Assembly: GCA_017444825.1 (NCBI GenBank)
Contig: JAFSVU010000034.1
Location: forward strand, 1-64,000
DNA: 64,000 nt
Reading direction: 5' to 3'
From: Clostridia bacterium
GTDB taxonomy: Bacteria; Bacillota; Clostridia; UBA1212
A model generated the notes under the pieces. It worked only from the letters and a program-made list of their open reading frames with translations, searched no databases and was not told the DNA's origin. The first letter of the stretch is position 1. Each line of letters opens with the position of its first letter. Positions 20,565-46,886 of this stretch are shown here, one piece after another. The position numbers were made by a program, and so were the translations under genes.

Positions 20565-22109
20565 TCAGGCTCCTATGTCTGTAAGCGTTCCGATGAAGAC
20601 CGGAAGCATTGACGTTGTATCAACAATTGCATAGAGGAAAGGTCTGTCCAGGATCACTTCAGGCTTTTCATCCGGCTCAATTGAGGTCACTCTGTCAACT
20701 ATGACTGCCGTAACCGCAGCCGCCCTGGTTCCCGAGGGATCCACCTCTATATGAGTCTTATGAATGACCTTGCTTACGGCAAGGTTATCGCCGCTGTCAA
20801 GTGTGCCGAGGCCCGAAAGATCGGCAAAATCCGAAAAAGCGGAAACGATGCCCATCACCTGGAGAACGTCGGAAAGCTCTTTTGAGAGGTCGAACTTAAA
20901 CTCGGGGATGGCTGCGGAGCAATTGCCTTTTCCTGACGCGATAAGAGAGTTCAAACGGCCATTTTCCAATGACTTGATATAGTCGGACATATCCATGCCT
21001 TTTTCGGGGAGAAGAGCCACAAATGCATACTTTCCGCCCTTGTAGTATTTGACGAAGCCCTCTTCACGTTCGCCCTTTATGTACCCCGATTCGGTGGAAT
21101 ACATAAGCTCCACATCACTGTCACCGTTTTCGCCGTGAAAAACGCCTTTCCGGACCTGATGGTCCTGATACTGCTCCTGCCAGATAGCATTAAAGCAAAG
21201 GGCATTCAGAAGAACCATGATCGTGTCTACGCCAACGTCATCATAATTGAGCACTTTTTTGATCATGCCGTCCGTATTTTCGTCGCACCAGTTATTGATA
21301 ATATCAACTGTCTCAGGATCGGTGAAGGAAGCCTTCGCAACAGCGGCTTTAAACAGGCTCTCCACTGCTTCCAGAAAATCATTGCTTACGGAAAAATCTT
21401 CCCGGTCCGTAAAGAAGACCGCATTGGCGTCTTCAAGGGAGGCATCCTCCGAATTTACAAGTCCGGAATAATAACTAAGTATTTCGGTATTGGCCTCTTC
21501 AAGGCTCATAGAGCCGAAAAGAACGTTTAGCATCTCCTCAAGAGTTTCGCCCTTCGCTCCGTTTGCAGTCATAAGAAGCGCAGTCATCACAGAAAGAGGC
21601 GAGACAAGAGAGCCCCCTTCGCCGGAGCAAAGGTCCATAAGTTTAAGCGCAAAATCATTGTAATGATTTTTGAATTCTTCGCTGACGGATGATACGGGAG
21701 TGCCCTGTTTGGAAGAGCCAAGCGTAAGGAAAGTCACAAGCTCGCCCGCAGGAGTTTCAGCGGGAGGTGTTTCCGTGGGTCCCGGCACGTCGGTAGCAGA
21801 GGGAGATCCATCGGGAGTTTCCGGAGAAATTGTTTCGGGAGCCGCAGTCTCCTCTGAAGGAGATGGCATTGGAGTATCATCCTCTGTAAAAGTTACAAGC
21901 CCTGCGGTATCGTGAGCCGGATCTTCGGTCGCGAGAGTGTCATCAGTATTTTGAGGCTCTTCGCCGGGAGCGGGAGTCGGGACGGGCGTCTTGGTCACAA
22001 AAGATTCGCTTTTACCGTCATTTATAACAGGTTCGATCTTAGCGGGAGCGCAGGACGCAAGACTCATTAAAAAAGCTATGCAGATAAAAAGGCAAATGAT
22101 TTTTTTCAA
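20565..22109 (-). CDS. Secreted serpin-family lipoprotein
   Basis: 514 residues. A signal peptide ends in a lipobox (LASC, Cys about 20), followed by a long Pro/Thr/Glu linker to about residue 135 and then a full-length serpin fold (FALKLMDLC, SPLSVMTALLMTANGAKGET, LLNALCFNAIWQ). The hinge reads DPSGTRAAAVTAVIV, close to the EEGTEAAAATA consensus of inhibitory serpins, so a protease inhibitor is likely. By counting from the hinge, P1 falls on Val or the preceding Arg. The start is TTG after AGGTGA. It lies 17 bases downstream of tRNA-Leu, whose promoter probably drives it. Confidence 0.9.
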   Translation of the reverse strand: MKKIICLFICIAFLMSLASCAPAKIEPVINDGKSESFVTKTPVPTPAPGEEPQNTDDTLATEDPAHDTAGLVTFTEDDTPMPSPSEETAAPETISPETPDGSPSATDVPGPTETPPAETPAGELVTFLTLGSSKQGTPVSSVSEEFKNHYNDFALKLMDLCSGEGGSLVSPLSVMTALLMTANGAKGETLEEMLNVLFGSMSLEEANTEILSYYSGLVNSEDASLEDANAVFFTDREDFSVSNDFLEAVESLFKAAVAKASFTDPETVDIINNWCDENTDGMIKKVLNYDDVGVDTIMVLLNALCFNAIWQEQYQDHQVRKGVFHGENGDSDVELMYSTESGYIKGEREEGFVKYYKGGKYAFVALLPEKGMDMSDYIKSLENGRLNSLIASGKGNCSAAIPEFKFDLSKELSDVLQVMGIVSAFSDFADLSGLGTLDSGDNLAVSKVIHKTHIEVDPSGTRAAAVTAVIVDRVTSIEPDEKPEVILDRPFLYAIVDTTSMLPVFIGTLTDIGA

Positions 22110-23297: not shown

Positions 23298-26200
23298 TCA
23301 GCCCACAGTCACTCTGAACGTGCGGCTGTCTGTGTAATTTTCCATGTCGACTATGAAGCTGTAATCAAAGAATCCTTCGGTGGTGTAGTTTACCTGGTAG
23401 CCGTCGAAGTCGGCCACGTTGTATACGTAATCCACCCAGCTTCCGTCCACAAGTTCCTGTATCTTGGGCCTTACAAGCTTTGTGAATCCGCAGACCCTGA
23501 CGGCATTGGCGTTACGCCCACCTGTTACTGTGAATTCAGCCACGTCGTTTTCGCACCCTACTATCGCGATGTAGTCGTCCTCGATGACCGATCCGGTCTT
23601 CACCTCAGAAACTCTCCAGGGATTGTTGATGGAGTCTTCTATTACGTAGGTAACGTTATCGTCATTGGTCTGGTTCGCCACACCGAAAGGCAACAGTATG
23701 AACACGCAATCAATGGTGTCGCCCTTCTTGAATTCAAGCACGTCAGCGTCCACGCCGATCTCCACCTTGTTCAGCATCCCGCCGTCGTTTATGACGGAAT
23801 TTCTCATCACAAGGCCGTTTTCAAACGCCTTACCGCCAACAGTCATACTGAAGGATTTCACTATGAAACCAAAGTTCTCAACGTCACTGCCGTTTCTCAC
23901 GGAATAGTTGTAAAGGCTGTAGTACGGGTTATCGAGGGACAGCTTGTATATCTTTTCGGACTGTACGCCCTTTGTGTTGTTCTTCAGTTCCACAAGGGTG
24001 CCATCCTCCGACTTGTATTTGGTGGTTTCCATGCACGCGGACCTGGGATCAAAATAGAACAGTGTAAAGGTCTTTCTGGCATCCTCGAAGGTAACGTCCT
24101 CAAGCACGGTGGCCTTCATGGAATAATATGTCCTGTTCTCGTCGTTAGACGGGAATTCAACGTGGCGAAGGTCATAGGCAATTGTGCCGTCAAATGAAAT
24201 GTATGAATAGTCAAGATCAGAATAGACCGGCCCCACCGAACGGATATACGAATCGGTGTATTCGGACTGGTAGACCTTGTTACCCACCTTGTATCTCAGG
24301 AAGCCCGGACGTCCCACTGAATTGAACTGGGGCTGCGTCGTCCACATAATACCGCTGCAACCGCGGAAGTCAGGCAACGTCCAGCCGTCTCTTCCGTATA
24401 CGAAATAAGGCGCGATGCAGTTTGACTCTGTTGTACCTGTAGACAGGTGATAATAGCCAATGTGAAAACTTATAGAGGAGATCTGTTTAAGAGCGTGGGC
24501 TCCCCAGTTCTGGTAGAGATTTAGCATGGTGTAAGTTAGATCCTTCCCCGCCTCCACCACAAGGGGATAAACGGTCACGCCCCACTGGGGATCCTTCGGA
24601 TCGTAATAGCTTTCCTCGTTCTCGCCATGGAAGTTTTTACAGACCTCCGGCTGAATCGGAGTGAGCATCATCTTATCGTCAAGGAGCGCGGCGGCCTCAA
24701 GACAGCCGTTTTCGCCTTTGCTGTAAAAATAGATCTTTCTGTTATCTGAGGAAGCGCTCACTTTTACGGTGCCTCCGTAGTAGTTGTTCCTGTTCTTGAC
24801 CCTGTATGCGGTCTGAAAATCGGTTCCGGCAACAGTCAGTGTGTAGGCACCGACATTGGTGTCGTATCCTGTGGCTTTAAACTTGGATGCTTTTGAATAC
24901 TGCTCGGTGACCTCAAACGTCAGCGGATGGCGCTCGTAATAAGCCTCCATCTTTAGCTCGTCGAAATCATGCTTTCCGCTTGCATATATCCTGTGGCCGA
25001 ACCTGCTGCTTGAGGCCTTCTTGTGGGAGCCCGTAATATCGATAAAAATTTCGACGACGTAGTTGTCCCCTTCTGTGAAAACTCTGGTGCCTGTGACGCC
25101 GTCATCCTCGGCAATAACACCGAACACGCCCGCATCCTTTATATTAAAACCAATGTACTCAAAGTTTTCCACCGTTCCGTCTATGCTTTCAAGCAGGCTT
25201 CCGCCGGGCATACCGACGATAAGCTTCTCAACGGTGCTCTTCGGTATCTGATACCTGCCGCCGAACTCTTTAAGGTCGTCCTGGGCCACGTCATATATGA
25301 TCCTGAGAGTGGAATGAAGCTTGTCGGAGTAGGAATGGAGCGTCTGCTCAAAGCCGTATTTGACTGTGGGTACGGAAGGCGCTTTGGCGAGGGAAACGTT
25401 CTCGATGATGACCTTGTCGTCCTCTGTGGCACCGTCAATGTCAAATCTGAGGCCCCTGATCTTCCCGCTTGTACCGTCGAAGTCGGGTATGTAAACATAC
25501 ACTCTTTCCTTGGTCGCACCCTGGGTAAACTTGAAATTTCTGCTCTGCTCCGGGCAGTATGAAGTATGGCCGTCATACGTGTAAAAGATCTGGCCGCTTG
25601 AGGCGCTTCCGTCGCTTGTGATATCGAATGCCACGCAGTTTGCGCCATTGAGAGGCTGGGACACGGCGAATACTATGTATGGATCAGAGCTCCTCTGAAT
25701 AACAAACGAAAGCACGTCGTTTTCCACATTAACATCCGTGACGTCATGGCCGTTTCTTTCGTAAGAATCCAGGTGCACGGCATCGCCCTCCTCGTAGACG
25801 TCAACGGCCCCTTCCGGCGTTTCGAAAGCCAGTTCTCTGATATTTACTTCGTAATAGTATGAGCCCAGTTTATTGGTGTTTGTCCTGGCTGACGATGAAG
25901 ACGTGGTGTTGAACGTGAAGCCGTCATTGGTTTTTACGTAGCCGGTGATACCGCCGTTTACAAGTGGTACGCCGTTTGCGTTCATGATCGAAGTGAGACC
26001 CCGTTCACTCCCGCCCTTCAAAGTTATGTGAGCTCTTGAGTTCAGATTCTGAACAGTGAAGCCGTTTCTCTCGGGGGAGTCGTAAAAGCACTGGACCCCG
26101 TTCATAAGATCGTTCGCGTAAACTATACTTGAAGCCATAGCGGTCTCATCCTTTATACTTCTCGGTTCGGGAGTCGGTTCCGGTTCGGCAGTAGGCAGAT

Positions 26201-26312
26201 CAGTCTGTCCGGGCTTACCGGGGTCTCCTGTGTTCGTGCATCCCACAGCCGGAAGAAGAATGGCAAGTGTAAGCACAAGCGATATTACCGCGAGAAATCT
26301 CTTATTTTTCAT
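23298..26312 (-). CDS. Large secreted lipoprotein of unknown function
   Basis: 1004 residues. A signal peptide with lipobox AVGC (Cys about 25) and a short Pro/Glu spacer lead into a long, beta-rich, Asn/Tyr/Asp/Ser-rich body with no motif I recognise. Aromatic-rich stretches such as SFHIGYYHLSTG suggest carbohydrate- or envelope-binding beta-sandwiches (inference). It starts 16 bases after pbp2, so it is made with the elongation machinery. AAAGGAGC precedes the ATG. Confidence 0.75.
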   Translation of the reverse strand: MKNKRFLAVISLVLTLAILLPAVGCTNTGDPGKPGQTDLPTAEPEPTPEPRSIKDETAMASSIVYANDLMNGVQCFYDSPERNGFTVQNLNSRAHITLKGGSERGLTSIMNANGVPLVNGGITGYVKTNDGFTFNTTSSSSARTNTNKLGSYYYEVNIRELAFETPEGAVDVYEEGDAVHLDSYERNGHDVTDVNVENDVLSFVIQRSSDPYIVFAVSQPLNGANCVAFDITSDGSASSGQIFYTYDGHTSYCPEQSRNFKFTQGATKERVYVYIPDFDGTSGKIRGLRFDIDGATEDDKVIIENVSLAKAPSVPTVKYGFEQTLHSYSDKLHSTLRIIYDVAQDDLKEFGGRYQIPKSTVEKLIVGMPGGSLLESIDGTVENFEYIGFNIKDAGVFGVIAEDDGVTGTRVFTEGDNYVVEIFIDITGSHKKASSSRFGHRIYASGKHDFDELKMEAYYERHPLTFEVTEQYSKASKFKATGYDTNVGAYTLTVAGTDFQTAYRVKNRNNYYGGTVKVSASSDNRKIYFYSKGENGCLEAAALLDDKMMLTPIQPEVCKNFHGENEESYYDPKDPQWGVTVYPLVVEAGKDLTYTMLNLYQNWGAHALKQISSISFHIGYYHLSTGTTESNCIAPYFVYGRDGWTLPDFRGCSGIMWTTQPQFNSVGRPGFLRYKVGNKVYQSEYTDSYIRSVGPVYSDLDYSYISFDGTIAYDLRHVEFPSNDENRTYYSMKATVLEDVTFEDARKTFTLFYFDPRSACMETTKYKSEDGTLVELKNNTKGVQSEKIYKLSLDNPYYSLYNYSVRNGSDVENFGFIVKSFSMTVGGKAFENGLVMRNSVINDGGMLNKVEIGVDADVLEFKKGDTIDCVFILLPFGVANQTNDDNVTYVIEDSINNPWRVSEVKTGSVIEDDYIAIVGCENDVAEFTVTGGRNANAVRVCGFTKLVRPKIQELVDGSWVDYVYNVADFDGYQVNYTTEGFFDYSFIVDMENYTDSRTFRVTVG

Positions 26313-26328: not shown

Positions 26329-28497
26329 TCAATAGATTGGACCGTCTGTATTGAACCATTTGCCCAGTCGCTGGCCGCTGCCCACAGAGTTTGAGTATCT
26401 GTCATACGTATGAGTGCCGGTAACGTCGCCCTCTTCGTATTTGCCCTCAAAGCAGCAATCCATTATCTCGCCGATCATGGGGAAAGTATTTCCGCTGTAG
26501 ACACCGTGCTCCAGCATAAGTGTCAGCGCTATCTGCGGATCGTTGCAGGGAGCAAATCCGGTATAAAAACCGTGGGACGACTGCTCATTGGTACCTGTCT
26601 GGGCCGTTCCGGTCTTTCCCGCCACAAAATATCTGGGGTACATGTTTACAAGCTTTGCGATAGCAGGGTAAGCCTCTATCATTCTCGTCATAGCGACTTT
26701 TACAAGATCCACCGCATCCTTGGAGACGCCTGTCTCTGTGGCTATCTTCTCGCGCTTGTAAACGATGCTGCCCTTCGCGTCCACAACGACGTTCAAAAGG
26801 TGCATATCGTAAAGCGTTCCGCCGTTTGCGATGGCGCCGGTGTAGCGGTTGACCTGGATAGGTGTAAAGGCTGTGTAGAGCTGTCCGATGCAGGTGGCCG
26901 CGGTGGATGCGTCATTCCACGCATGGTACCTTCCCGATTCGAATATATCCATGGTCTGCGGGTTGCTTCGTGATCCCTGGCGTTCCGGTATCTCTATGCC
27001 CGAGAACTCGCCAAGGCCGAACTGCTTCGCCCAGTAGTCGATATTCTCGATGCCCGCGTCAATGCCCACGGTCGCAAAATAAACGTTGCAGGACCTTCCC
27101 AGGGCCGCCACAAGGTTAACGTTATTGTGTATACCCAGGCATTTCATCTTTCTGCCGCCGGCCTTGATGTATCCGGGACAGTTTACGACCCTGTCCGCAT
27201 CAGTTGCGCCGGATTCCAGAGCCGCAATGGCGATGATAGGCTTTATCATCGATCCGATAGGATAGGTTCCCTGGGTGGCACGGTTGATGCTCGGTGAGTC
27301 GTCAGCCTCAAGGATCTGCTTTATCTGCTCCTGAGCCTTGAAATCCGATGCCGGTGCGACGAAAAGGTTATTGTCGAAGCTCGGATAGGAGACCATGGCG
27401 TAGATGGCTCCCGAATTGACGTCGGAAACAATTGCGGCGCCGGCATTGCAGTCTCCGAAGTTGTCCTGCTCCTGAGGGGCTCTCGACACCGTATTCTTAA
27501 CAATGGTATCCATGGACTCATAGAGTCTCTGCTGGAGCCTGATGTCGATGGTGAGGTAAACGTCGTAGCCCGCCCTTGGCGCCTGATATCCGGTCTCCTT
27601 TACGGTTCCGTCGGCACCGATGGCATATGACCTGTATCCTCTCTCGCCCCTAAGATATGTCTCGTAGGACTTCTCAAGGCCTATCTTACCTATGACGTCA
27701 TCCGCAAGGTAGCCCTGGTCTTTTTTCTGTTTGTATTCCTCTTCGTCGATGGCTCTGACATAGCCGATCACAGGACCCAGTGACTCATTGTTCACGTAAT
27801 ACCTGTAGTACGTTTCCTCGGTGGTGATACCGTGGAAGTCCCCGGATTTCGCCGTTATCTCGTCAATACTCGCCTTGCATGCATCGCTGCTGACAACGGT
27901 CGGTTTGATGGTATCCAGGCCGTATGCGTAGGTCGTATAACGCATGATCATTATTTTGTATGCCTCATAGTCCGAATAATCCTCGGATATGCCGAAAAGA
28001 TTGGACCTGAGGTAGTTAAAAGCGGATCCCGGTGTGTCAAAATAGCTCTTGTCGGACTTTGACGTGACAAGATCGTTCATAAAAGCCTGTTTGTTTCCGA
28101 TTTCATAGGGTTCGTCGATCATCGGTCCCCAGGCCGGAGGATAGAGGAGATAATCGCCAAGGAAATTGGTGTACTCATCGCCGTTCTTCTCAAAAATGTT
28201 GACAAGCTCCAGGTACATCCTGTCGCGGTAGGACTGGTCATCGTCGGTGTTTATCATATAGACCTTGTAGGAGGTCCTGTTTCCCGCCAGCAACACGCCG
28301 TTTCTGTCGTATATGTTTCCCCTTGGCGCGTCAAGAGGAAGCTTGTACTCAGTCATTTCCTTAAGATCGTCGGCGTAGAGCTCGCTGTTTACCACCTGTA
28401 TGGAAAACAGTCTCGCCGCAAGAAGGATCATGACCAATACAAGTCCGATCCCGAGATACGTTATACGGTTATGAAGCAGCTTTTTAAGTCCGTTCAT
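26329..28497 (-). CDS. mrdA: Penicillin-binding protein 2 (elongasome transpeptidase)
   Basis: Cross-links peptidoglycan during cell elongation, outside the membrane. 722 residues with one N-terminal membrane anchor (about 12-32), a PBP dimerisation region (APRGNIYDRNG near 57) and a class B transpeptidase. The active-site triad is complete: SMIK near residue 414, SCN near 467 and KTGTAQTG near 627. Its place directly after mreD supports PBP2 rather than the division enzyme PBP3. The stop of mreD and this start are four bases apart. Confidence 0.95.
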   Translation of the reverse strand: MNGLKKLLHNRITYLGIGLVLVMILLAARLFSIQVVNSELYADDLKEMTEYKLPLDAPRGNIYDRNGVLLAGNRTSYKVYMINTDDDQSYRDRMYLELVNIFEKNGDEYTNFLGDYLLYPPAWGPMIDEPYEIGNKQAFMNDLVTSKSDKSYFDTPGSAFNYLRSNLFGISEDYSDYEAYKIMIMRYTTYAYGLDTIKPTVVSSDACKASIDEITAKSGDFHGITTEETYYRYYVNNESLGPVIGYVRAIDEEEYKQKKDQGYLADDVIGKIGLEKSYETYLRGERGYRSYAIGADGTVKETGYQAPRAGYDVYLTIDIRLQQRLYESMDTIVKNTVSRAPQEQDNFGDCNAGAAIVSDVNSGAIYAMVSYPSFDNNLFVAPASDFKAQEQIKQILEADDSPSINRATQGTYPIGSMIKPIIAIAALESGATDADRVVNCPGYIKAGGRKMKCLGIHNNVNLVAALGRSCNVYFATVGIDAGIENIDYWAKQFGLGEFSGIEIPERQGSRSNPQTMDIFESGRYHAWNDASTAATCIGQLYTAFTPIQVNRYTGAIANGGTLYDMHLLNVVVDAKGSIVYKREKIATETGVSKDAVDLVKVAMTRMIEAYPAIAKLVNMYPRYFVAGKTGTAQTGTNEQSSHGFYTGFAPCNDPQIALTLMLEHGVYSGNTFPMIGEIMDCCFEGKYEEGDVTGTHTYDRYSNSVGSGQRLGKWFNTDGPIY

Positions 28498-36890: not shown

Positions 36891-36911
36891 ACCGGGTTCA
36901 GCAGAAATAAA

Positions 36912-36955
36912 AATTTACGGGCGCCCGCTTGACAAAGGTCAGGGGCGCCCGTATT
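36912..36955. terminator. Terminator between glnS and the acyl operon
   Basis: ACGGGCGCCC at 36917-36926 pairs perfectly with GGGCGCCCGT at 36943-36952. The minus strand has the better U-tract (AAATTTTTATTT); the plus strand has only TATTGGTTA. It closes the nine-gene operon and probably also glnS. Confidence 0.85.
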
Positions 36956-36982: not shown

Positions 36983-37948
36983 CTAAAGAACACCGCTGTG
37001 CCTCGCTACAAAATCGCATATGGTATCGTCATACTCATCTTCGTTATTGATCCTGACGTGGGAATGTCCGCCTTTCTTAAACCAGTGTATCTCTTTTACG
37101 GAAGACGTGCAGTTTGCAAAAAGCTTCCTGCTCTCCGGGGGCAGTGAATACCGGTCCAGCTCGGTGTAAAGGAAAAGAATTGGCTTCTTCAGTTTTTTCA
37201 CGGCTTTGTAGGGACCGTATGTCAGGCAGTTTGCGCCGGTATTCTTTCTCAGTATGATCATAACCTCGTAGGCCACCGGGAAAGCGGGCTTGTTCCACTC
37301 CTTCATATGGAGCCTGAAGGTCTCAAAAAAGTTCTTGTACATGCCATCGGCGCACATGCCGGTAAAATAGTCGGGAACGTCCGGCTCGGTCATGGTGTAG
37401 ACGGCCGTGGACGATCCGATGCATATCCCGTGAAGGAACACCGAGTTATTTCCGAGGCTGTCGTGTAAAAGCCTGCCCCACTTGATGACGTCCCTCTTCT
37501 CAAGCTCACCCATGGAGTAGTATTTTCCGTCGGAAAAGCCTGTGGCCCTGCTGTCGATAACAAGCACGTTAAACCCGGCCTTTCTGTAAGGCTCTGCATA
37601 GTAATATGAATACGCAAGTGACTCCGTCCGCCCGGGCAGGATGATCACAGACCGTGTAAAGCCGAAGTCATAATACTCGCCAAGGAGCCTCAGCCCGTCA
37701 TTTTCGATCTCAATGGGTTTCATTGAAGCTTTGTAAAGCTCCGCCCAGTCAAGTCCCCTTCTGAACATCTCGGCCTGCTCTTTGTCGTCGGGAGCAGAGC
37801 ACTTTCTGGCCCTCTCCTCACCATCAGGCCTTATGAGCGTCTTATCGTATACTCTTCCTGCAACGTAAAAAGTAAAGACCACCGAGAACACTATCCCCGA
37901 TCCCAAAACGATGCCGGCTATCAGAATTACGATCTCCAAAGGCCCCAT
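36983..37948 (-). CDS. Membrane-anchored alpha/beta hydrolase with Cys at the nucleophile position
   Basis: 321 residues. An N-terminal membrane helix (about 5-30), then an alpha/beta-hydrolase fold. The nucleophile elbow reads HGICIGSS, so Cys stands where Ser is usual; the acid (TELDRYSLP) and His (GGHSHVR) of the triad are present. Its paralog at 40737 has the normal GLSMG. Cys nucleophiles are known in dienelactone hydrolases, so activity is possible. Last gene of the acyl operon. A thioesterase, lipase or acyl-transfer role is inferred from context. Confidence 0.8.
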   Translation of the reverse strand: MGPLEIVILIAGIVLGSGIVFSVVFTFYVAGRVYDKTLIRPDGEERARKCSAPDDKEQAEMFRRGLDWAELYKASMKPIEIENDGLRLLGEYYDFGFTRSVIILPGRTESLAYSYYYAEPYRKAGFNVLVIDSRATGFSDGKYYSMGELEKRDVIKWGRLLHDSLGNNSVFLHGICIGSSTAVYTMTEPDVPDYFTGMCADGMYKNFFETFRLHMKEWNKPAFPVAYEVMIILRKNTGANCLTYGPYKAVKKLKKPILFLYTELDRYSLPPESRKLFANCTSSVKEIHWFKKGGHSHVRINNEDEYDDTICDFVARHSGVL

Positions 37949-37954
37949 AAATCC

Positions 37955-39721
37955 TCAAATCAAACCGATAATATAGTCCTGCGATTTCTGTCCGCCGCCG
38001 GTCACCACAAATTCAATATCCGGGAACTCGTCGGAAAGTCTGTCGGAAAGCTCGTCGGTCACGTCTTCATCCGCGTTTTCGCCCGTAAATATGATGGCGG
38101 TCTCTTTTTCTTCTATACCCACTACAGCGCCAATGCTCTTCACCGCCACGCCGATCATGTCATCCTGGGAGGAAGCTTTTATATCGCCGGAAACAAGAAG
38201 GCCTATCCAGTCGCCCTCTTTGCACTTTGAATCGCCGTTTCCATAGTCTTTGCTGGCTCTTAAAACCGCGATAGTGGACGTGGCCTCGGCAGTCTTTCGC
38301 ATAAGCTCTATACGCTCGGAGGGGCTAAGCTGGGGGTCGTCATTGGCGATTCCGAAATACCCGGCAGCAGAGCTTAAGGACTTTATAATATGCACTTTTT
38401 CGTCGCTTGTAAGGTCTTTAGACTGCTCGGCCGCAAAGAAGATATTGGGATTGTTGGGAAATATAACAATTTCGGCGTCCTTGCTGACCTCCCTGATCTC
38501 CTCTATACAGCTTACAAATTCACCTGAGGAGGTGTTCATTGTGGCGCCGCCGTCGATCACGAAATCAGCCCCGCTCTCCTCAAGAAGAGAGAGCACGCCT
38601 TCGCCCGTGCCGACAACTATCTTGTAAAGATCCTTTTCGCGTATGCGGCCTGCCGCGTTTACAGGAAAGGCTTCCCCATCGCCGGGAAGCGACGTACCGG
38701 AGATACCTGAAGAGGCGTCGTGGCCGTTTGAGCGGTCCTGACCCTCGGATTCCCTGCTGTCGTAAATACTGTTGTGCTGGAGGCACATGTTTTCAAGCTT
38801 GAATGACACGAATTCACCGTAGTTCTGGACAAGCTCGATCACTCTTGCGGGCTTGAACGTGTGGACGTGGACCTTGACCCTGGTTCCGAGCTTTGACACG
38901 ACGACGGATTCGCCGATGCCCTCAAGGGTGGAGACAAAGGAGGTCAGATTGAACATGTTCACATAGTTCGGCCCCTTCATTATCTGGAGCAGAAATTCCA
39001 TGCAATAGCCGTATTCAAACGGAGTGTTCTCATTGAATGCGGCAATGGACGTATTGGCGACAGGTCTGTGATCCGCGGATGAGGTGAAAGAAAAGTCCTC
39101 GATATAGGAATTGTCCTCAAGATAGCGGAGCATTCCTTCAAATACACGTACAAGACCCATTCCGCCGCTGTCGATAACGCCGGCTTCCTTGAGACAGGGA
39201 AGGAGCTCCGGAGTATTCGCAAGTGACTCCTTCAGCCTCGCAATGTACATTCCGAGCAAGGTCTCAAAAGAGCAGGATCTCGGAAGCTGGGGACGCACGA
39301 ATTCGATGCCTTCCCTTGCAACTGTCAGGATGGTGCCCTCCTTAGGGGATCTGCAGCCCGAATAGGCCTGTTTGTACCCGTGAGTGAGGGCCGAAGCCAT
39401 GGCGTTTGGAGCCATTGATTCGTAGCGTCTGAGGCTTCTTGCGAAACCGTCAAAAAAGTTTGACAGGATAACGCCTGAATTTCCGCGCGCGCCGAAAATC
39501 ATACCGTCCGCCAGGGCTCGAAGGTATTGGTTAAGAAGAGTCTTGCCTGTGGCCGCATCGATGCCGTGGGCAAGTGTAAGCTTCATATTTGTGCCGGTAT
39601 CGCCGTCCGGGACCGGGAAAACATTGAGGGAATTGATCTTTTCTTCGGATTCAGTGATGCCTTTCAAAGCTCCCAGCATCATTTTTCCGAAATCCATCCC
39701 GTTTACTCTGTAAGTTGCCAT
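37955..39721 (-). CDS. fakA: Fatty acid kinase ATP-binding subunit FakA (DAK2/YloV family)
   Basis: Phosphorylates FakB-bound fatty acid to acyl-phosphate. 588 residues (typical about 550). The N-terminal DhaL/DAK2 domain has the metal-binding Asp motif NVFPVPDGDTGTNM near residue 35 and FGARGNSGVILS near 77. A central linker and a C-terminal domain follow. A Ser/Gly-rich insertion around 335-365 is not typical. It lies 50 bases downstream of the fakB-like gene and six bases before the last hydrolase. Confidence 0.9.
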   Translation of the reverse strand: MATYRVNGMDFGKMMLGALKGITESEEKINSLNVFPVPDGDTGTNMKLTLAHGIDAATGKTLLNQYLRALADGMIFGARGNSGVILSNFFDGFARSLRRYESMAPNAMASALTHGYKQAYSGCRSPKEGTILTVAREGIEFVRPQLPRSCSFETLLGMYIARLKESLANTPELLPCLKEAGVIDSGGMGLVRVFEGMLRYLEDNSYIEDFSFTSSADHRPVANTSIAAFNENTPFEYGYCMEFLLQIMKGPNYVNMFNLTSFVSTLEGIGESVVVSKLGTRVKVHVHTFKPARVIELVQNYGEFVSFKLENMCLQHNSIYDSRESEGQDRSNGHDASSGISGTSLPGDGEAFPVNAAGRIREKDLYKIVVGTGEGVLSLLEESGADFVIDGGATMNTSSGEFVSCIEEIREVSKDAEIVIFPNNPNIFFAAEQSKDLTSDEKVHIIKSLSSAAGYFGIANDDPQLSPSERIELMRKTAEATSTIAVLRASKDYGNGDSKCKEGDWIGLLVSGDIKASSQDDMIGVAVKSIGAVVGIEEKETAIIFTGENADEDVTDELSDRLSDEFPDIEFVVTGGGQKSQDYIIGLI

Positions 39722-39770
39722 ATTTAAAAAATCTCCGGTTTGACCTTGTCTACATTTTTAATAAAGGGTG

Positions 39771-40697
39771 TCACCCGTTGAGCCTTGCAAGTATCGCTCT
39801 TTCCTCCTCAAGATCCGCTGTAAGAGGCTTTCCGATATAGTAGCAGGCCATGATGCCGGGGCCGCCGTTGGTTCCCGACGTCCTGTAAATATCGGTGTAG
39901 TATATCGCCTTCGGATGGAATCTCTCCTTTATAAGCTCGAGATACTTTTCCGCGGGCTTTCTCCTGTTGGAGCTCGCAACGATCATTATCTGGTTTTCCG
40001 GGTCGGTGACTGTCTCGCCAATGTAATCAAGAAGCACCTTGAAAGCCGAGCGCTCGCCTTTGATCTTGGCAAGGACCGTGGTCATGCCCTCCTGGGAAAA
40101 ATCGCCAACGGGTTTAATTCCGACCAATGTTCCCATGAAAGCCTTGGCATTTGATATTCTGCCTTTTTTAGCGGAGAATTGAAGATCGTCGTGCCAGCCT
40201 GCCTGGTGGATCAGATTCTTGACAGATTCGAGGTATTCTGCGGTCTGATCAAGGTCTGAGCCCTCTTCGTCCCTTTTTACAGCGGCAAGGATCGTAAGAA
40301 GTCCCGCACCTGCCGCATATTTTCTCGTATCAAAGCAGTATATCTTTGCGTCGGGGTATTCCTCAAGGACCTTGTCCCTTGCGGCGCAGGCAAAATCGTG
40401 AGTGCCGCTCATTTTGGAGGACATAGCCGTGTGAAGTACCGGCATGCCTTCCGCGGCGTATTTTTTGAATATCTCATAAAGCTCGCCAACGGAAGCCGGA
40501 GCCGTGGTATACCCGTCCGGATTCTTCTTTAAAGCATCATAAAATTCCTCGCAGGAGTTGTAATCCCAGTTAAGCTCCGACTCTATCTCGTTGCCGTCGG
40601 GAAGCATAAGGTGACCCTTGATATACTCGGTTCCGAACTTCGCCCGAAGCTCAGGGGAAAGATCGCAAGATACATCGCCCAAAATCACAAATTTCAT
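39771..40697 (-). CDS. fakB: DegV-family fatty-acid-binding protein (FakB-like)
   Basis: 308 residues. DegV fold with the fatty-acid carboxylate-binding Thr/Ser loops: YTTAPASVGEL near residue 60 and HTAMSSKMSGTHDFA near 90, and a GTNGGPG loop near 280. Presents fatty acid to FakA, whose gene follows immediately, so the two probably work as a pair. Confidence 0.9.
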   Translation of the reverse strand: MKFVILGDVSCDLSPELRAKFGTEYIKGHLMLPDGNEIESELNWDYNSCEEFYDALKKNPDGYTTAPASVGELYEIFKKYAAEGMPVLHTAMSSKMSGTHDFACAARDKVLEEYPDAKIYCFDTRKYAAGAGLLTILAAVKRDEEGSDLDQTAEYLESVKNLIHQAGWHDDLQFSAKKGRISNAKAFMGTLVGIKPVGDFSQEGMTTVLAKIKGERSAFKVLLDYIGETVTDPENQIMIVASSNRRKPAEKYLELIKERFHPKAIYYTDIYRTSGTNGGPGIMACYYIGKPLTADLEEERAILARLNG

Positions 40698-40736
40698 AAT
40701 ATTACCTCCGTTCCTTCAGCACCGGAGCGGCACAGC

Positions 40737-41666
40737 CTATGCGCCGACCTCTTCCGCAAATGCCTTCAATGATTCCTCTATATATTGTCTGTCGGCAATA
40801 AACGCCTCCGCATGCCCGGCACCCTCAGCTATGTAAAGCTTTTTATGTGCCGAGCCTATCGCTTCAAAATTTAACTTCGCATTTTCCGGTACCACGAGCC
40901 TGTCTTCGCTTCCGTGGATGAAATATGCGGGAACATCGCATTGCCTCAGCCTCTCTTTGATCTTCGACTTTTTAATGTCGATCCCCAGGAACATGATCCC
41001 CGAGAGCCTGCACAAAACCGCTACCAGAGATCCCCAGGCGCCGTATTTCTTCGCTCCCACGAGTAGCGTGTCGTAGGCCCTTCTGTAACCGCTCTCAAGC
41101 ACCAGCAGCTTCACGTTGGGATAGTTCTTAAGCTTGTCCGCAGTGAGGCAAATGGTAGCACAGCCCATGGAAAGGCCGTAAAGGGCTATGATATCGTCAG
41201 GTCTCCGCTCCGAGACATAGTCCAGCCATGCTGTCAGATCCTTTTGCTCCCGCTCTCCGAAGGTGATCGCTCTGCCCTCGCTGTCGTAGTGGGCCCTGTG
41301 GGACACCAGAAGCACGTTATAACCAAGGTCCTTCATGGTAAGGAACCCCGCGTGAATGTTATTGTACGGAATGGCCCTGTAGCCGTGAAGAGCTATCACT
41401 GTTTTGTTAAAGCCAAAGTCGTAGAACCTGGCTCCAAGCAAAAGACCGTCGTATGACCTGATCCTCACCGGCTCGTATGCCATCTGTTTTATCTCAAGGA
41501 TCGTCCTTAGGAGTTCGTCCTTGTATTTTGCGTAGTGTGACTTGCTTAGGTCAAGAGACTCCAATGGCACCTCCTCGCCCCGCAAAAAGCAGCCCGCAAA
41601 GCATCTTACGAGCAAAACGACGAAAAAAACGATCACAAGTCCCGCGCCAATGACAGCAAATATCAT
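40737..41666 (-). CDS. Membrane-anchored alpha/beta hydrolase (Ser type)
   Basis: 309 residues with an N-terminal membrane helix (about 3-25). The nucleophile elbow is YGLSMGCA near residue 146, the oxyanion region ALHGYRA near 93, the acid in HGSEDRLV near 250 and the His in GAGHAEAF near 284, a complete triad. Closely similar in layout to the Cys-type protein at 36983. It follows the ACP gene with one base between, suggesting action on an acyl-ACP or a lipid made by the operon. Confidence 0.85.
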   Translation of the reverse strand: MIFAVIGAGLVIVFFVVLLVRCFAGCFLRGEEVPLESLDLSKSHYAKYKDELLRTILEIKQMAYEPVRIRSYDGLLLGARFYDFGFNKTVIALHGYRAIPYNNIHAGFLTMKDLGYNVLLVSHRAHYDSEGRAITFGEREQKDLTAWLDYVSERRPDDIIALYGLSMGCATICLTADKLKNYPNVKLLVLESGYRRAYDTLLVGAKKYGAWGSLVAVLCRLSGIMFLGIDIKKSKIKERLRQCDVPAYFIHGSEDRLVVPENAKLNFEAIGSAHKKLYIAEGAGHAEAFIADRQYIEESLKAFAEEVGA

Positions 41667-41667
41667 T

Positions 41668-41928
41668 TCAAGCCTGTCTCTTATCTATGTATCTTACCAC
41701 GTCACCGAGAGTCACGAAATCGTTCATTCCCACGTCGTCGAAGCTGATGCCGAATTCGCTCTCGATCACTATGATCATATATATCATGCCTACGGAGTTG
41801 AGCCCGAAATAACCGGTGAGTTCCGACTCTTCGCCGCCGGCATTGATGCGGTCTTTGTCTCCGGGATTCTGCATCACAAGTATCTCTTTCAGCTTGGATG
41901 CGATCTTTTCTTCTCTTTCAGTAAACAT
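41668..41928 (-). CDS. Stand-alone acyl carrier protein
   Basis: 86 residues from the ATG at 41928, which has GGAGG seven bases upstream; the longer frame adds a 14-residue leader without a ribosome site. The phosphopantetheine Ser lies in GLNSVGMIYMI, where Asn replaces the usual Asp of DSL. Helix II (MIYMIIVIESEF) is normal. Probably a pathway-specific carrier rather than the fatty acid synthase AcpP, since no fab genes are nearby. Confidence 0.88.
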   Translation of the reverse strand: MFTEREEKIASKLKEILVMQNPGDKDRINAGGEESELTGYFGLNSVGMIYMIIVIESEFGISFDDVGMNDFVTLGDVVRYIDKRQA

Positions 41929-41966
41929 CAGGTGTCCTCCGTTTGAACGGCATTGGTTACAGAGTT

Positions 41967-43487
41967 TCAACCGAACTTCTTATACCTCTTGATCTTCATC
42001 GCAGGCGTCCTCTCAAAGTCCTCGGTCCTTATGGTGACCTTCGAGGGTCTCTCAAATGACGGCAATGTCTTCGTTACTTCGTTTACAGCCTCCATTATCT
42101 TTTTTGCCGCAGTCTCTTTGTCAAAAGCCGCTATCTCCGTTTTTCTCGGAACCACTTCAAGGTGCAGGAAGTGAGGTCCGTCGCCCTCCGCATCTTCAAA
42201 CAGCTGGCAGTCCTGGATGTAAACGATGTTATTGTAATGTTTTTCCACCTCAGCGGGAGAAACGTTCTCACCGTTGGAAAGGACTATTATCTCCTTGATC
42301 CTGCCTGTGATGTAAAGGCAGCCGTCCTCGTCCAGTCTTCCAAGGTCGCCGGTCTTAAACCACCCGTCCTCTGTAAAGGCGTTTTTGGTCTCTTCCGGAT
42401 CACCAACGTATTCCTTGAATATGTTGATGCCCTTAAGCTGTATCTCGCCGTCTTCGAATCTGATCTCCTGGAAGGGATAGAGGATTCCGACAGACTCGGG
42501 CTTTTCATTGTTGTAGGGGTTTCCGGACACAAGGTTTGCGGACTCCGTAAGACCGTAGCCCGGATAGACGCTTACGCCCATTGCTCCGAATTCTCTGATG
42601 AGATAAGGAGGCACCCAGGCGGCTCCGGCAATGACAGTCTTGACAGTGCCCAGCATGTTCTTTTTGAAAAGTCTGGAAAGACCGAGAGCCATCTCCACGA
42701 GAGCCGGAACGGCCACAAGGACTGTGGGCTGATATGCTGCGATATCCGCAAAGAGGTCTTTGTTGTTTCTGCAGATGCAGAGAGTGCTTCCGGAATAGAG
42801 GCTGGTCATCATATTTCTGATGAGCCCGAACACGTGGGACAGCGGGAGACAGAGGATATATGTCTGATAAAACACTTCAGGAAGGTCAAGACATCCAAAA
42901 ATTGTTCCTGCGATTACGTTCCGGTGGGTGAGAAGAGCACCCTTGCTGCGGCCTGTGGTGCCGCCGGTAAACATGATCACACAGTCGTCATCGGGAGAAA
43001 TGTCATCTGCAGCGGGGGCCGCGTCTCCCTTGCCCGTTACGTCAAGCGCTTTAAAGCCGGGTTTCTTGGCGGATGCAACAGATGTCTTGGCGGAGAGCCC
43101 CTCCGTGGTAATTATTGCTTTGAGCCCGAATTTCATGGAAACGCCGAACACTGTCATCTCATCCAGCTGAACGGGAAGGACGGCTGCTGTTGCACCCATT
43201 GTCGTGACAGCCAGAAACGCCTTCACAAAATCGGCGGAATTTGGAACCAGTATGCCCACTCTGTCACCTTTTGCGATTCCCTCGGAAGAAAGATATCCTC
43301 TGAACGCCGCCACGTCGCTTGCCAGCTCGCTGTAGGTCTTTACGATTTCCTTATCCTTTACAGCCACTCTGTCGCCGTAGCTTAAGGAATTCTCCCACAT
43401 TTCGCCAAGGTTCTTGAACCATTTGATCTTTGCGAATGTTTCCTTGTCGGTAAACCTTTCAAAATAACTCAAGTCAAAAGATTTCAT
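41967..43487 (-). CDS. Acyl-CoA/acyl-ACP synthetase (ANL adenylate-forming family)
   Basis: Activates a carboxylic acid as acyl-AMP and passes it to a thiol. 506 residues. ANL motifs: A3 MFTGGTTGRSKGALLTH near 171, A5 GYGLTESAN near 308, A7 TGDLGRLDEDG near 375, and the C-terminal catalytic Lys in AMKIKRYKK. The gene directly upstream of the free ACP suggests transfer to that ACP rather than to CoA (inference). Confidence 0.9.
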   Translation of the reverse strand: MKSFDLSYFERFTDKETFAKIKWFKNLGEMWENSLSYGDRVAVKDKEIVKTYSELASDVAAFRGYLSSEGIAKGDRVGILVPNSADFVKAFLAVTTMGATAAVLPVQLDEMTVFGVSMKFGLKAIITTEGLSAKTSVASAKKPGFKALDVTGKGDAAPAADDISPDDDCVIMFTGGTTGRSKGALLTHRNVIAGTIFGCLDLPEVFYQTYILCLPLSHVFGLIRNMMTSLYSGSTLCICRNNKDLFADIAAYQPTVLVAVPALVEMALGLSRLFKKNMLGTVKTVIAGAAWVPPYLIREFGAMGVSVYPGYGLTESANLVSGNPYNNEKPESVGILYPFQEIRFEDGEIQLKGINIFKEYVGDPEETKNAFTEDGWFKTGDLGRLDEDGCLYITGRIKEIIVLSNGENVSPAEVEKHYNNIVYIQDCQLFEDAEGDGPHFLHLEVVPRKTEIAAFDKETAAKKIMEAVNEVTKTLPSFERPSKVTIRTEDFERTPAMKIKRYKKFG

Positions 43488-43503
43488 TTTATTCCTCCGT
43501 ATG

Positions 43504-44172
43504 TCATTTGCATATGCTTTTCAAATAGTTTTCTTTTTCCGTGATCATGGCGGTGACCTCATTGATCCTCTCCATGGTAGGCATTTTACCCAGCAGTGAT
43601 TTCACGTCAATAGGCTCGCCAATGGCCACCTTCACCCGCTCGAAAACACCGGTCCTCGGTTTAAGATAAACAGGCCATATGGGAGCTCCGCTTGAGAAAG
43701 CCATCATGACCATACCTGATTTCAAATTATCAACCATTGGCGCATTTTTTTCAAGTTTTTTCTTGTTATCCGCGGCCTCGTCGCCTTCCCCGTCTTCGTC
43801 CCTGACCACGTGTCCTTCCGGAAAAATGACGCACATATTTCCCTCTTTGAGATTAGACGTGATCTCCCTGAAGGAACTCATTGCAAAGTTCTTTCTGTCG
43901 ATCGGGATGGTAAGAAAATGCCTGAAGAGCCAGCGGTTGAACTTTGTGTTCATAAGCTCATCGGTGCACACGTAGTGGTGGCGCCTTTTCCATATGCTCA
44001 GCATAAGATAAAGGGGGTCGAATAGAGTGTTGTGGTTGCACACCATCAGCACGCCTCCCTTTGGCACCTTTTTTGCGGCTTCGTTTTCGTATATGTGCTT
44101 GGGCCTGAACCAGAGCAGTCCCGGCGCCGCGGTAAATATCACAAAATCATAAACAAAAGTCGTCATAACCAA
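43504..44172 (-). CDS. PlsC-like acyltransferase, paralog 1
   Basis: 222 residues. The acyltransferase motifs are NHNTLFDP (H-x4-D) near residue 46 and FPEGH near 116, typical of 1-acylglycerol-3-phosphate acyltransferases. One N-terminal hydrophobic segment. An acidic insertion (DEDGEGDEAADNKKK) lies just after the FPEGH motif. The acceptor lipid is unknown. Four bases separate it from the next PlsC-like gene upstream. Confidence 0.9.
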   Translation of the reverse strand: MVMTTFVYDFVIFTAAPGLLWFRPKHIYENEAAKKVPKGGVLMVCNHNTLFDPLYLMLSIWKRRHHYVCTDELMNTKFNRWLFRHFLTIPIDRKNFAMSSFREITSNLKEGNMCVIFPEGHVVRDEDGEGDEAADNKKKLEKNAPMVDNLKSGMVMMAFSSGAPIWPVYLKPRTGVFERVKVAIGEPIDVKSLLGKMPTMERINEVTAMITEKENYLKSICK

Positions 44173-44175
44173 TCC

Positions 44176-44823
44176 TCATTTGCGGCATGTCTTCTCGCCA
44201 AGAAGCTTTCCAAGCTCAGCCACCCTTTCTCTGAGAGCTTTTGTACAATTAGTCAGGTTTTCTCTTTCCGGAAGCTCCGGGTCGTAATAGTCAAATACGT
44301 CAAAGGGCTTTCCGATGATCATGCGGGCCCTTCTGCTCAGCTTGAAGTACTGGCCGTCGGTGTATACCGGGATGATCGGCACGTTTGCCGAAAGAGCGGT
44401 AAGGACGCAGCTTGGCGTGAAAGGAAGCAGTTCACCCTTCTCCTCCGCCCGTGGTATCCTGGACTCGGGGAATATTCCGACTACGCCCCCGTCATCAAGT
44501 ATCTCAAGAGACTCGTCCACAAAATCAAGACTTTTTGAATCTCTGTCAACATAAACTGAGCCCATTGCCTTAAGAAGCTTCCCCAAGGCCTTCTTCTTAT
44601 ACAGTACCTCCGCCGTCTGGAACCTTACGGTCCTTGTGAAAAACGTGAACATAACGGGCACTATATCAAATACCGAGGTGTGGTTCGAAGCGATTATGGC
44701 GGGACCTTTTATATGCCTCCCGGAAGCCTTCTTGTCCTCATAATAGACCTTTGTGGTAAAAAGGAGCAGCTCCGCCGGCCAGCCCGTCAGCTTTAAAAAA
44801 GTGTTTACAAAGCCGTGGATCAT
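44176..44823 (-). CDS. PlsC-like acyltransferase, paralog 2
   Basis: 215 residues with NHTSVFD near residue 47 and FPESRIPRAEEKGEL near 118; the second motif has Ser in place of Gly. It overlaps the preceding ligase-ACP gene by four bases (ATGA). Two different PlsC-type enzymes in tandem could add the two acyl chains of a lipid, or acylate a non-phosphatidate acceptor. Confidence 0.9.
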   Translation of the reverse strand: MIHGFVNTFLKLTGWPAELLLFTTKVYYEDKKASGRHIKGPAIIASNHTSVFDIVPVMFTFFTRTVRFQTAEVLYKKKALGKLLKAMGSVYVDRDSKSLDFVDESLEILDDGGVVGIFPESRIPRAEEKGELLPFTPSCVLTALSANVPIIPVYTDGQYFKLSRRARMIIGKPFDVFDYYDPELPERENLTNCTKALRERVAELGKLLGEKTCRK

Positions 44824-46832
44824 TCTTCCCGCACCCCCTCTTCCAGCATCTTAAGTATCTCGTCACGCAAAAATCTCGGGGTGATCTTTTCTCCGGAATA
44901 GCCGACCGGCATTGTGCCGGAATATTTCACCGAAAGCCCCGACAGTACCTCAATAAAATCAAGAGAACTGAATCCAAGTTCACCGAAAAGATCCGAATCG
45001 GGACCAATGTCATTAACGTCGATGCCTTTTGCCTCGGCGATTATATTAATAACGTCAATGAGCACCGTGTCGGAAGGATCAATTTCAGTCCCTGATTTTT
45101 TTCTGCGGGACTTGTCGGTGACGTCCCTTATTTCACCGCTTTCGAGACTTCTTGCCAGCTTCTTTCTGCTTACCTTAAAATCGCCCTCCGGGATCAGGCT
45201 TTCGCTTGTAAGTATGATTTTTGAGATCATGCCCCGAAGAGGAGTTGAAAGCGCATTCCGAGATATCTCATCACGTATCTCCGCGATCCTTTCATCAGTA
45301 AGACCCTCTTCGATCTCAGCAACTATGGCGGCCCCCTGCCCGTCTCTTAACGCACAAAGCGTCACGACTCCGTTGGTATAGAGGTATTTCTCGACTATAT
45401 CGGGGTTTATGTTCTCGCCGCTTTGGGGAACGATGAGATCGTCGGCTCTTCCGAGTATGCGGTAGCCCTTGCCTTCTTTTGCGGCCATATCCTTCGTGGG
45501 AAACCACTCCGGAAGTTCTTTTCTTACGCCGTTTTCAACGATATAGCTTGCGACCACCTGTCCCTTTATGAAAAGCTCGCCGCCCTCTATCTTGTATTCC
45601 ACCTTGTCAAGGGGTCTTCCCACAAGTCCCTTAAGCACCTGTTTGACGTTTTTGGAAAGCTCGACGCTGGCAATGCCGGTCTCGGTCATGCCGAAGCCGT
45701 TCATAAGCCTGTAACCAATGAGATTAAAGAACTCCAGCACGTCCTCCCTCACGGCGCCTCCCCCGCTTATCATAAATGATATGCTGCCTCCAAAGAGCTT
45801 CCTTCTGACCGGTTTAAATGCGGCTTTGGAAAATGCATTGCCGAGTAGAGAACCGATGATCGGTATCCCGTAGATTTTCTCCGCGATCCTCATGCCTTTC
45901 CTGAACCTTGCGGCAGTCTCCTCGCCCATGGAATTTATCTTCCTCATGGCCCCCTCGAACACCTTGTTCCAGAACAGGGGAACCGCAAAGATATGGGTCA
46001 CGTGTCTGCGCCTTACGGTATTGGTCAGTGTTTCGGGACTTAGATCGCTGAGGAACACAAAGGTCCTTGAGAAAAATCCGAACCAGAGATATACCGCCAC
46101 AAAACCGAAAATATGATAAAATGGCAGAAACGCAAGGAGCTTAAGCTCACCCCTGTAATGTCTCTTGGTGAGCCGGTTTTTCTTGATGATCTCAAATGAA
46201 TACGATATCTGATGGAAGAATCTGTCCGCGCCGTAATAACAGAGCTTCACGTTTTCGGTGGTGCCTGATGTCATGAATATGATCTCATTGGCGAAAGGCT
46301 TTCCCGAAAGCGCAGGCTCTTCATCGCAGTATTCCTTTGTTTTTTCCAGAAGATCTCCGGCGCAAACTATGTTAAAATCTTTAAATTCGTCAGAAAAAGA
46401 CTGGAGTTTTGACCTGTCGCATATAATATGCCCGCAGGCGGCAGATCCCGCGGCTTTTTTAAGAGATCTCTTATCAAGCAGGAGATTCATCAAAAGAGGC
46501 TTCACGCCCGCGATGACCAATGCCCAGAATATCTCTATCCAGAGGAGGCTGTTCTCCATGTATATTCCGCAGACAGCCCCTTCTTTTGACACAAGGTCCG
46601 GCATCATGGCTTCCACAGCCTTTGAAAGGAGCAGCGAATTTCTTTTAGCTTCACCGTAAGTTGTCTTTATTACTTTAAAGCCCCTTGACTCCTCGCTGAT
46701 TATGTTGTCAGACTCCCTGAACATCAGCCGGAAGAGTGTCTCAAAGCACTTCTCCGACCTTTCAAAATCAAGAAGCTTCTTTCTCACATATTCGTTGATG
46801 GTGCGCGCTCCGCCCAGGTTTGTAACTCTCAT
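44820..46832 (-). CDS. Acyl-adenylate ligase fused to an acyl carrier domain
   Basis: 670 residues. An ANL ligase domain (about 1-565; A3-like MTSGTTENVKL, A5 NGFGMTETG near 377, LGRADDLIVPQSGEN near 455) is joined to a C-terminal ACP domain with the phosphopantetheine Ser in GELGFSSLDFIEVL. The A3 loop lacks the usual Lys-Gly. Such fusions load their own carrier, as in polyketide starter or lipid-tailoring enzymes. No Shine-Dalgarno is evident before the ATG. First gene of the nine-gene operon. Confidence 0.88.
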   Translation of the reverse strand: MRVTNLGGARTINEYVRKKLLDFERSEKCFETLFRLMFRESDNIISEESRGFKVIKTTYGEAKRNSLLLSKAVEAMMPDLVSKEGAVCGIYMENSLLWIEIFWALVIAGVKPLLMNLLLDKRSLKKAAGSAACGHIICDRSKLQSFSDEFKDFNIVCAGDLLEKTKEYCDEEPALSGKPFANEIIFMTSGTTENVKLCYYGADRFFHQISYSFEIIKKNRLTKRHYRGELKLLAFLPFYHIFGFVAVYLWFGFFSRTFVFLSDLSPETLTNTVRRRHVTHIFAVPLFWNKVFEGAMRKINSMGEETAARFRKGMRIAEKIYGIPIIGSLLGNAFSKAAFKPVRRKLFGGSISFMISGGGAVREDVLEFFNLIGYRLMNGFGMTETGIASVELSKNVKQVLKGLVGRPLDKVEYKIEGGELFIKGQVVASYIVENGVRKELPEWFPTKDMAAKEGKGYRILGRADDLIVPQSGENINPDIVEKYLYTNGVVTLCALRDGQGAAIVAEIEEGLTDERIAEIRDEISRNALSTPLRGMISKIILTSESLIPEGDFKVSRKKLARSLESGEIRDVTDKSRRKKSGTEIDPSDTVLIDVINIIAEAKGIDVNDIGPDSDLFGELGFSSLDFIEVLSGLSVKYSGTMPVGYSGEKITPRFLRDEILKMLEEGVREE

Positions 46833-46854: not shown

Positions 46855-46886
46855 CAAAACTAAAGCCGGCTTTATTTCCGCCGGCA
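46855..46886 (-). terminator. Terminator after folD
   Basis: On the minus strand GCCGGC (46885-46880) pairs with GCCGGC (46870-46865) around GGAAATAAA, then TTTAGTTTT. It separates the envelope operon from the acyl operon. Confidence 0.8.

Follow-up and report, generated by a model that had tools for sequence, protein, structure and literature searches.

What is the function of an operon that encodes two activation chemistries for free acids, two acyl carriers, two acyltransferases and two hydrolases, and no chain-extending synthase? The question is raised by positions 36983–46832 of a 64,000-nucleotide stretch of DNA (hereafter the window) from contig JAFSVU010000034.1 of a Clostridia bacterium of the UBA1212 lineage (assembly GCA_017444825.1). 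A preliminary description of this DNA had proposed that the nine genes salvage exogenous or released acids and assemble them into a special lipid or an acylated envelope polymer, by a pathway without known counterpart. We find that the operon is real, widely conserved and built of known parts, that as a system it is apparently undescribed, and we lean towards the view that it serves clostridia as a "Lands-cycle" unit, for the salvage of fatty acids and lysolipids and for reacylation.

Layout and boundaries of the operon

All nine open reading frames (ORFs) of the preliminary description were confirmed, as was every protein class assigned to them, by both Pfam and NCBIfam. The genes run end to end in the same direction on the minus strand, from 46832 to 36983, and encode in order a ligase–acyl carrier protein (ACP) fusion (LigACP), two PlsC-type acyltransferases (PlsC1 and PlsC2), a second ligase (Lig2), a free ACP, an alpha/beta hydrolase (abH1), a DegV/FakB protein, FakA and another alpha/beta hydrolase (abH2), with intergenic distances that range from a 4-bp overlap to ~49 bp. 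Flanking terminators had also been proposed. The downstream one, located 3' of abH2 and before a convergent tRNA synthetase gene (36904–36953, minus strand; stem 36953–36916), is strong (-28.3 kcal/mol, z -4.1), whereas the hairpin that separates folD from the operon (46856–46885, minus strand), with a GCCGGC stem at 46885–46865 followed by TTTAGTTTT, is weaker (z -1.6) and a plausible terminator. This upstream boundary is not kept in the congener L050, in which a 4-bp overlap joins folD to the ligase gene.

A conserved gene set and its recurring partners

A scan of ~85,000 species genomes yielded 243 encoded LigACP relatives, of which the best 80 were fetched; the titles of these best 80 are clostridial (one reads 'bacterium' and one 'Bacillota') and come mostly from rumen or gut samples. 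All nine window genes recur, each in at least 49 of the 56 loci that have 9.3 kb of downstream sequence, in near-identical order, so the linkage held and the earlier worry that the genes might be unlinked in relatives fell away. Such conservation, which crosses families and takes in over 50 named loci, far exceeds chance. Two further genes recur, one of the LRAT/PLAAT type (48/56 loci), with its catalytic His and Cys kept in 64 of 64 proteins, and one for a GPH-family transporter (33/56), and PlsX sometimes joins. Most often the genes are arranged as LigACP-PlsC1-PlsC2-Lig2-ACP-LRAT-abH1-FakB-(transporter)-FakA-abH2; 14 loci of this arrangement include the transporter and 13 do not. Examples of the LRAT/PLAAT-type proteins in relatives' operons, with an NCEHF motif, are found at L046:10319–10741 and L065:14986–15411.

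Within the window's taxonomic order, 15 of the 31 genomes searched have a LigACP ortholog that includes the carrier. Synteny of the complete set extends to congeners and to two other families (L041, L042), and a shorter set, FakB-FakA-transporter-LigACP-PlsC1-abH2, is found in L043, L045 and L047. A search of 392 genomes of the class placed all LigACP matches that exceed 400 bits in this order and in one genus of another family (f42/g58). The genome of a named strain, Ruminococcaceae bacterium P7, also carries the operon.

Ligases and carriers

LigACP (44820–46832, minus strand, 670 aa) joins an acyl-AMP ligase (PF00501, 1.6e-31) to a C-terminal acyl carrier domain (PF00550, 8.2e-7). Its adenylation motifs are intact and the phosphopantetheine serine is present, as in acyl-ACP synthetases or enzymes of the fatty acyl-AMP ligase (FAAL) type, and residues D448, R462 and K553 together with the carrier S623 are invariant in 13 orthologs. 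A fused, intact and conserved carrier argues for an enzyme that would load its own carrier in cis. Lig2 (41967–43487, minus strand, 506 aa; PF00501, 2.8e-59) is a second acyl-AMP ligase without fused carrier, and its nearest solved structures are fatty-acyl and feruloyl-CoA ligases. The free ACP (41668–41928, minus strand) likely starts at the ATG at 41928, to give ~86 aa, rather than at the TTG at 41970 to which the ORF reaches; it scores just below the Pfam cut-off (20.1 vs 20.8 bits), matches NCBIfam ACP families at E 8e-8, and its Ser59 is kept in 76 of 76 sequences.

Elsewhere on the same contig, beyond the window (C17:72874–74589; L039:12872–14632), a 586-aa protein that is paralogous to the LigACP ligase and has no carrier domain adjoins a 507-aa protein without Pfam match. 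Carrier-less paralogs of this kind are also present in congeners, some of them sharing a contig with the operon.

Acyltransferases and hydrolases

PlsC1 (44176–44823, minus strand, 215 aa; PF01553, 6.5e-18) has NHTSVFD and FPES motifs with H48, D53 and E120 conserved, and PlsC2 (43504–44172, minus strand, 222 aa; PF01553, 1.6e-20) has NHNTLFD and FPEG motifs and, as its nearest solved structure, 5kym, a PlsC. Both match NCBIfam models of acyl-[ACP]-phospholipid O-acyltransferases. With profiles, PlsC1 scores 54 bits to Escherichia coli PlsC and 28 to Aas, and PlsC2 scores 46 bits to Aas and 44 to PlsC.

Both hydrolases are membrane-anchored, each with one N-terminal hydrophobic segment. In abH1 (40737–41666, minus strand; PF12146, 4.7e-14) the Ser-Asp-His triad S166-D255-H285 is kept in 70 of 70 sequences. 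The nucleophile motif of abH2 (36983–37948, minus strand; PF12146, 2.5e-9) is G-I-C-I-G and not G-x-S-x-G, giving a Cys176-Asp265-His295 triad, and the Cys is found in 61 of 62 homologs. In a confident structure model of abH2 (predicted local distance difference test, pLDDT, 93) the fold is closest, among solved ones, to that of monoacylglycerol lipases and of Pf2001, an archaeal esterase. The E-values of remote fold matches do not show function. A Cys nucleophile is unusual among enzymes with these folds. Lysophospholipase L2 is matched weakly by 21 of 23 abH2 homologs.

FakA, FakB and a second Fak locus

FakA (37955–39721, minus strand; PF02734, PF21645, PF13684), the catalytic subunit of fatty acid kinase, has a DGDTGTNM motif, DAK2, middle and C-terminal domains and intact kinase motifs that are kept across operons, and matches NCBIfam YloV at 427 bits (cut-off 396). 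The operon FakB (39771–40697, minus strand; DegV family, PF02645, 2.7e-44) matches TIGR00762 at 166 bits (cut-off 99.7), with the ligand-site residues T65 and S93/S97 conserved. By alignment, its position 277 is Asn (as in 68 of 73 operon copies) where solved DegV/FakB relatives have His. In Staphylococcus aureus FakB1 the residue His270, equated with Asn277 on the basis of this alignment, takes part in the hydrogen-bond network by which the carboxylate of the fatty acid is held (PMC8892158). The same genome has a second FakA-FakB pair (L149, C23, 7169–11923), whose FakB retains the ligand-site His; it adjoins PlsX and a GNAT-like protein (a marginal match) and is probably the housekeeping fatty acid activation locus.

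Absence of fatty acid synthesis genes

The preliminary description had pointed to the lack of a chain-extending synthase among the nine genes, and as far as tested this holds genome-wide: FabF-type synthase, FabH, FabD and FabZ of type II fatty acid synthesis (FASII) were not found in the window genome (assembly 97.4% complete), and the same searches give matches in most control genomes. PlsX (two copies) and PlsY are present. Because all four Fab families are missing, the organism is likely an auxotroph that must take up fatty acids, likely one that has a standard Fak-PlsX-PlsY route to which the operon adds a further module.

The absence extends across the order, with FabF, FabH, FabD and FabZ lacking from 24, 24, 23 and 24 of 29 genomes, respectively. 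FabF, FabD and FabZ share the same five genomes (G001, G002, G003, G008 and G014); FabH is present in G018 and in all but one of these, and a FabD fragment is also found in G021. These are mostly metagenome assemblies in which single absences may be gaps, but the concordant absence of four families from many genomes is not. A compact fab cluster with plsX in G008 shows what the window genome lacks. In this order all 15 operon genomes lack FabF and all five FabF genomes lack the operon; in the class as a whole a synthase is present in 266 of 354 good genomes. Outside the window's order the operon coexists with FASII, and FASII loss is therefore associated with the operon and not required for it. 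A single genus holds a natural pair for comparing the two states: G007, with the operon and without FASII genes, and G008 (69% complete), with the full fab cluster and no operon found.

Salvage and reacylation as the preferred reading

We prefer salvage and reacylation because the partners in the operon are lipid-hydrolase folds, free-acid activators, carriers and acyltransferases, and because relatives add an LRAT-type enzyme, a GPH-family transporter or PlsX. These recurring partners, together with the absence of the four Fab families, support the salvage of exogenous or released acids proposed earlier. The acylated envelope polymer is not supported: no glycosyltransferase, MBOAT or polymer gene was seen in the operon or as a recurring member of homologous operons.

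For the substrates, the direction, the loading of the carriers and the lipid product, we infer the following scheme. The abH1 and abH2 proteins, joined in relatives by the LRAT/PLAAT-type enzyme, would take acyl chains off monoacylglycerols, lysophospholipids or damaged lipids, either freeing them or moving them. FakB would lift free acids off the membrane for phosphorylation by FakA, and the acyl-phosphate could then pass to PlsY directly or to ACP via PlsX, both encoded elsewhere. LigACP would adenylate acids and load its own carrier, and Lig2 would load the dedicated ACP in trans. PlsC1 and PlsC2 would transfer the chains to lysophospholipids or lysophosphatidic acid to give membrane lipid, and in many relatives the GPH-family transporter may import the acceptor or substrate. 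The two activation chemistries may thus serve different acceptors, acyl-phosphate for PlsY and carrier-bound acyl groups for PlsC1 and PlsC2, a split that agrees with known enzyme specificities (PMC10146087, PMC13400652).

Several observations weigh against this reading. The operon is not the sole route for incorporating fatty acids, because the genome has the second FakAB-PlsX locus and PlsY, and it is not solely an auxotrophy module: 33 of 47 operon-bearing genomes lack the FabF synthase and 14, including Ruminococcaceae bacterium P7, keep it. Conversely, nine FASII-less genomes of the order are without the operon. PlsC1 and PlsC2 are no nearer to Aas than to PlsC. The LRAT and transporter genes are absent from the operons of the window genus, that of the window included.

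A more specific version can be put forward only tentatively, as a possibility well short of the general reading. It is a Gram-positive Lands-cycle operon with which FASII-less clostridia would build membranes from scavenged lysolipids and monoglycerides, acyl-phosphate and PlsY acylating the first position and carrier-bound acyl groups with PlsC1 and PlsC2 the second; the Cys lipase-fold enzyme would be perhaps an acyltransferase, and relatives would have an MFSD2A-like lysolipid importer. If salvage and reacylation is right, it helps to explain how many mostly uncultured rumen and gut clostridia build membranes without fatty acid synthesis, and hints at additions to growth media (fatty acids, lysolipids or monoglycerides). 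Its presence in strain P7 offers a defined case for studying lipid cross-feeding in the rumen.

Alternative explanations

It is possible, although we consider it unlikely, that the product of the operon is a special lipid or an acylated metabolite. An unusual acid, whether branched, hydroxy or dicarboxylic, would come from one ligase-carrier pair and be placed by the PlsC enzymes on a non-standard acceptor; the Cys hydrolase-fold enzyme would be an acyltransferase or act in editing. Two ligase-carrier pairs beside FakAB exceed the needs of plain uptake, the housekeeping Fak-PlsX-PlsY route is encoded elsewhere, and the conserved Cys of abH2 and Asn of the operon FakB hint at an unusual ligand or reaction. 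However, neither an exporter nor any chain-modifying, glycosyl-, amino- or head-group enzyme recurs in homologous operons.

Less probable again is plain incorporation of free fatty acids, in which a duplicated Fak/ligase/PlsC set leads to phosphatidic acid and the hydrolases clear excess, without a lysolipid cycle. FakAB and PlsC would suffice for this together with PlsX and PlsY, and the lack of transporter and LRAT genes in the window genus fits it. It leaves unexplained the two anchored hydrolases, the LRAT and transporter genes of most homologs, and the two carriers, since PlsX already supplies acyl-ACP. A dlt-like system, in which Lig2 together with the free ACP would supply an activated amino acid or short acid to modify the envelope, was rejected as highly improbable, as Lig2, although it adjoins a small carrier and matches DltA structures at ~81 bits, is closer to fatty-acyl and related CoA ligases (~135 bits), and neither an MBOAT protein (DltB) nor DltD is among the nine operon proteins.

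Comparison with known systems

The nearest working analogue of a salvage and reacylation operon would appear to be LplT-Aas of E. coli, described from gram-negatives (PMC11416262), together with FakAB, although the parts differ. The two would share an acyl-ACP synthetase module and a PlsC-type acyltransferase module with an acyl carrier for reacylation, and the operons of relatives also hold an MFS-fold transporter. Unlike LplT-Aas, PlsC1, PlsC2, LigACP and Lig2 are separate genes with no fused Aas, the operon has its own fused and free carriers and extra FakAB and hydrolases, and the transporter, which the window operon lacks, is of the GPH family and not LplT. Orthology with Aas and LplT was considered and rejected: neither PlsC1 nor PlsC2 points to Aas in preference to PlsC, the Aas ligase favours Lig2 (128 bits) over LigACP (28 bits), and E. 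coli LplT is not matched by the profile of the relatives' transporter. If right, the preferred reading would nevertheless make the operon a Gram-positive counterpart of LplT-Aas.

FakA and FakB, the former with intact motifs, resemble the Firmicutes FakAB-PlsX-PlsY-PlsC pathway (PMC10146087), with PlsX and PlsY elsewhere in the genome. The operon departs from that pathway in combining FakAB with pairs of AMP-forming ligases, carriers, acyltransferases and hydrolases, and in a FakB without the usual ligand-site His. For RF39, an example among uncultured gut bacteria, loss of fatty acid synthesis has been reported and reliance on exogenous fatty acids inferred (PMC6784871). The taxa differ and the likeness lies in the missing FASII genes; that report names the Firmicutes Fak mechanism and no operon like the present one. 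It also cites a rumen Butyrivibrio that is lipolytic and requires fatty acids (Hazlewood and Dawson 1979). We found no publication on the nine-gene combination in the open-licence literature, and to that extent the claim of no known counterpart stands for the whole set; it does not extend to the modules, which would work like LplT-Aas and FakAB.

The GPH-family transporter of relatives

Sequence libraries label the relatives' transporter as a GPH sugar symporter, and a profile search of PDB sequences gave a marginal SUC1 match only. The top three Foldseek matches of its structure model (pLDDT 86.5) are to MFSD2A, a lysophosphatidylcholine transporter with which it shares the GPH/MFS fold; by VIA-align the resemblance is about equal, and MelB (Z 33.8) fits as well as or better than MFSD2A (Z 32.0). 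A lipid role is suggested by gene context. Where the transporter is present, FabF is lacking in 24 cases and present in 1; where the transporter is absent, FabF is lacking in 8 and present in 13 (Fisher p 4e-5). This association is confounded by phylogeny, and we do not claim a coupling of the transporter to FabF loss: it comes down to ~5 and 3 changes on the LigACP tree, and independent pairs give no significance.

Longer transporters (627–706 aa) directly follow LigACP at L131:11809–13929, L136:11946–13829 and L140:12111–14099. An MFS-PlsC fusion was considered for these and rejected, as Pfam finds no extra domain in them and the extra C-terminal part is without match.

Other genes in the window

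Directly 3' of a penicillin-binding protein gene (26329–28497) lies a gene (23298–26312, minus strand) for a 1004-aa protein without Pfam match at 1e-5. A serpin-family protein (PF00079, 2.3e-75) is encoded at 20565–22109 on the minus strand, adjoining a GH123-type glycoside hydrolase gene at 18975–20561.

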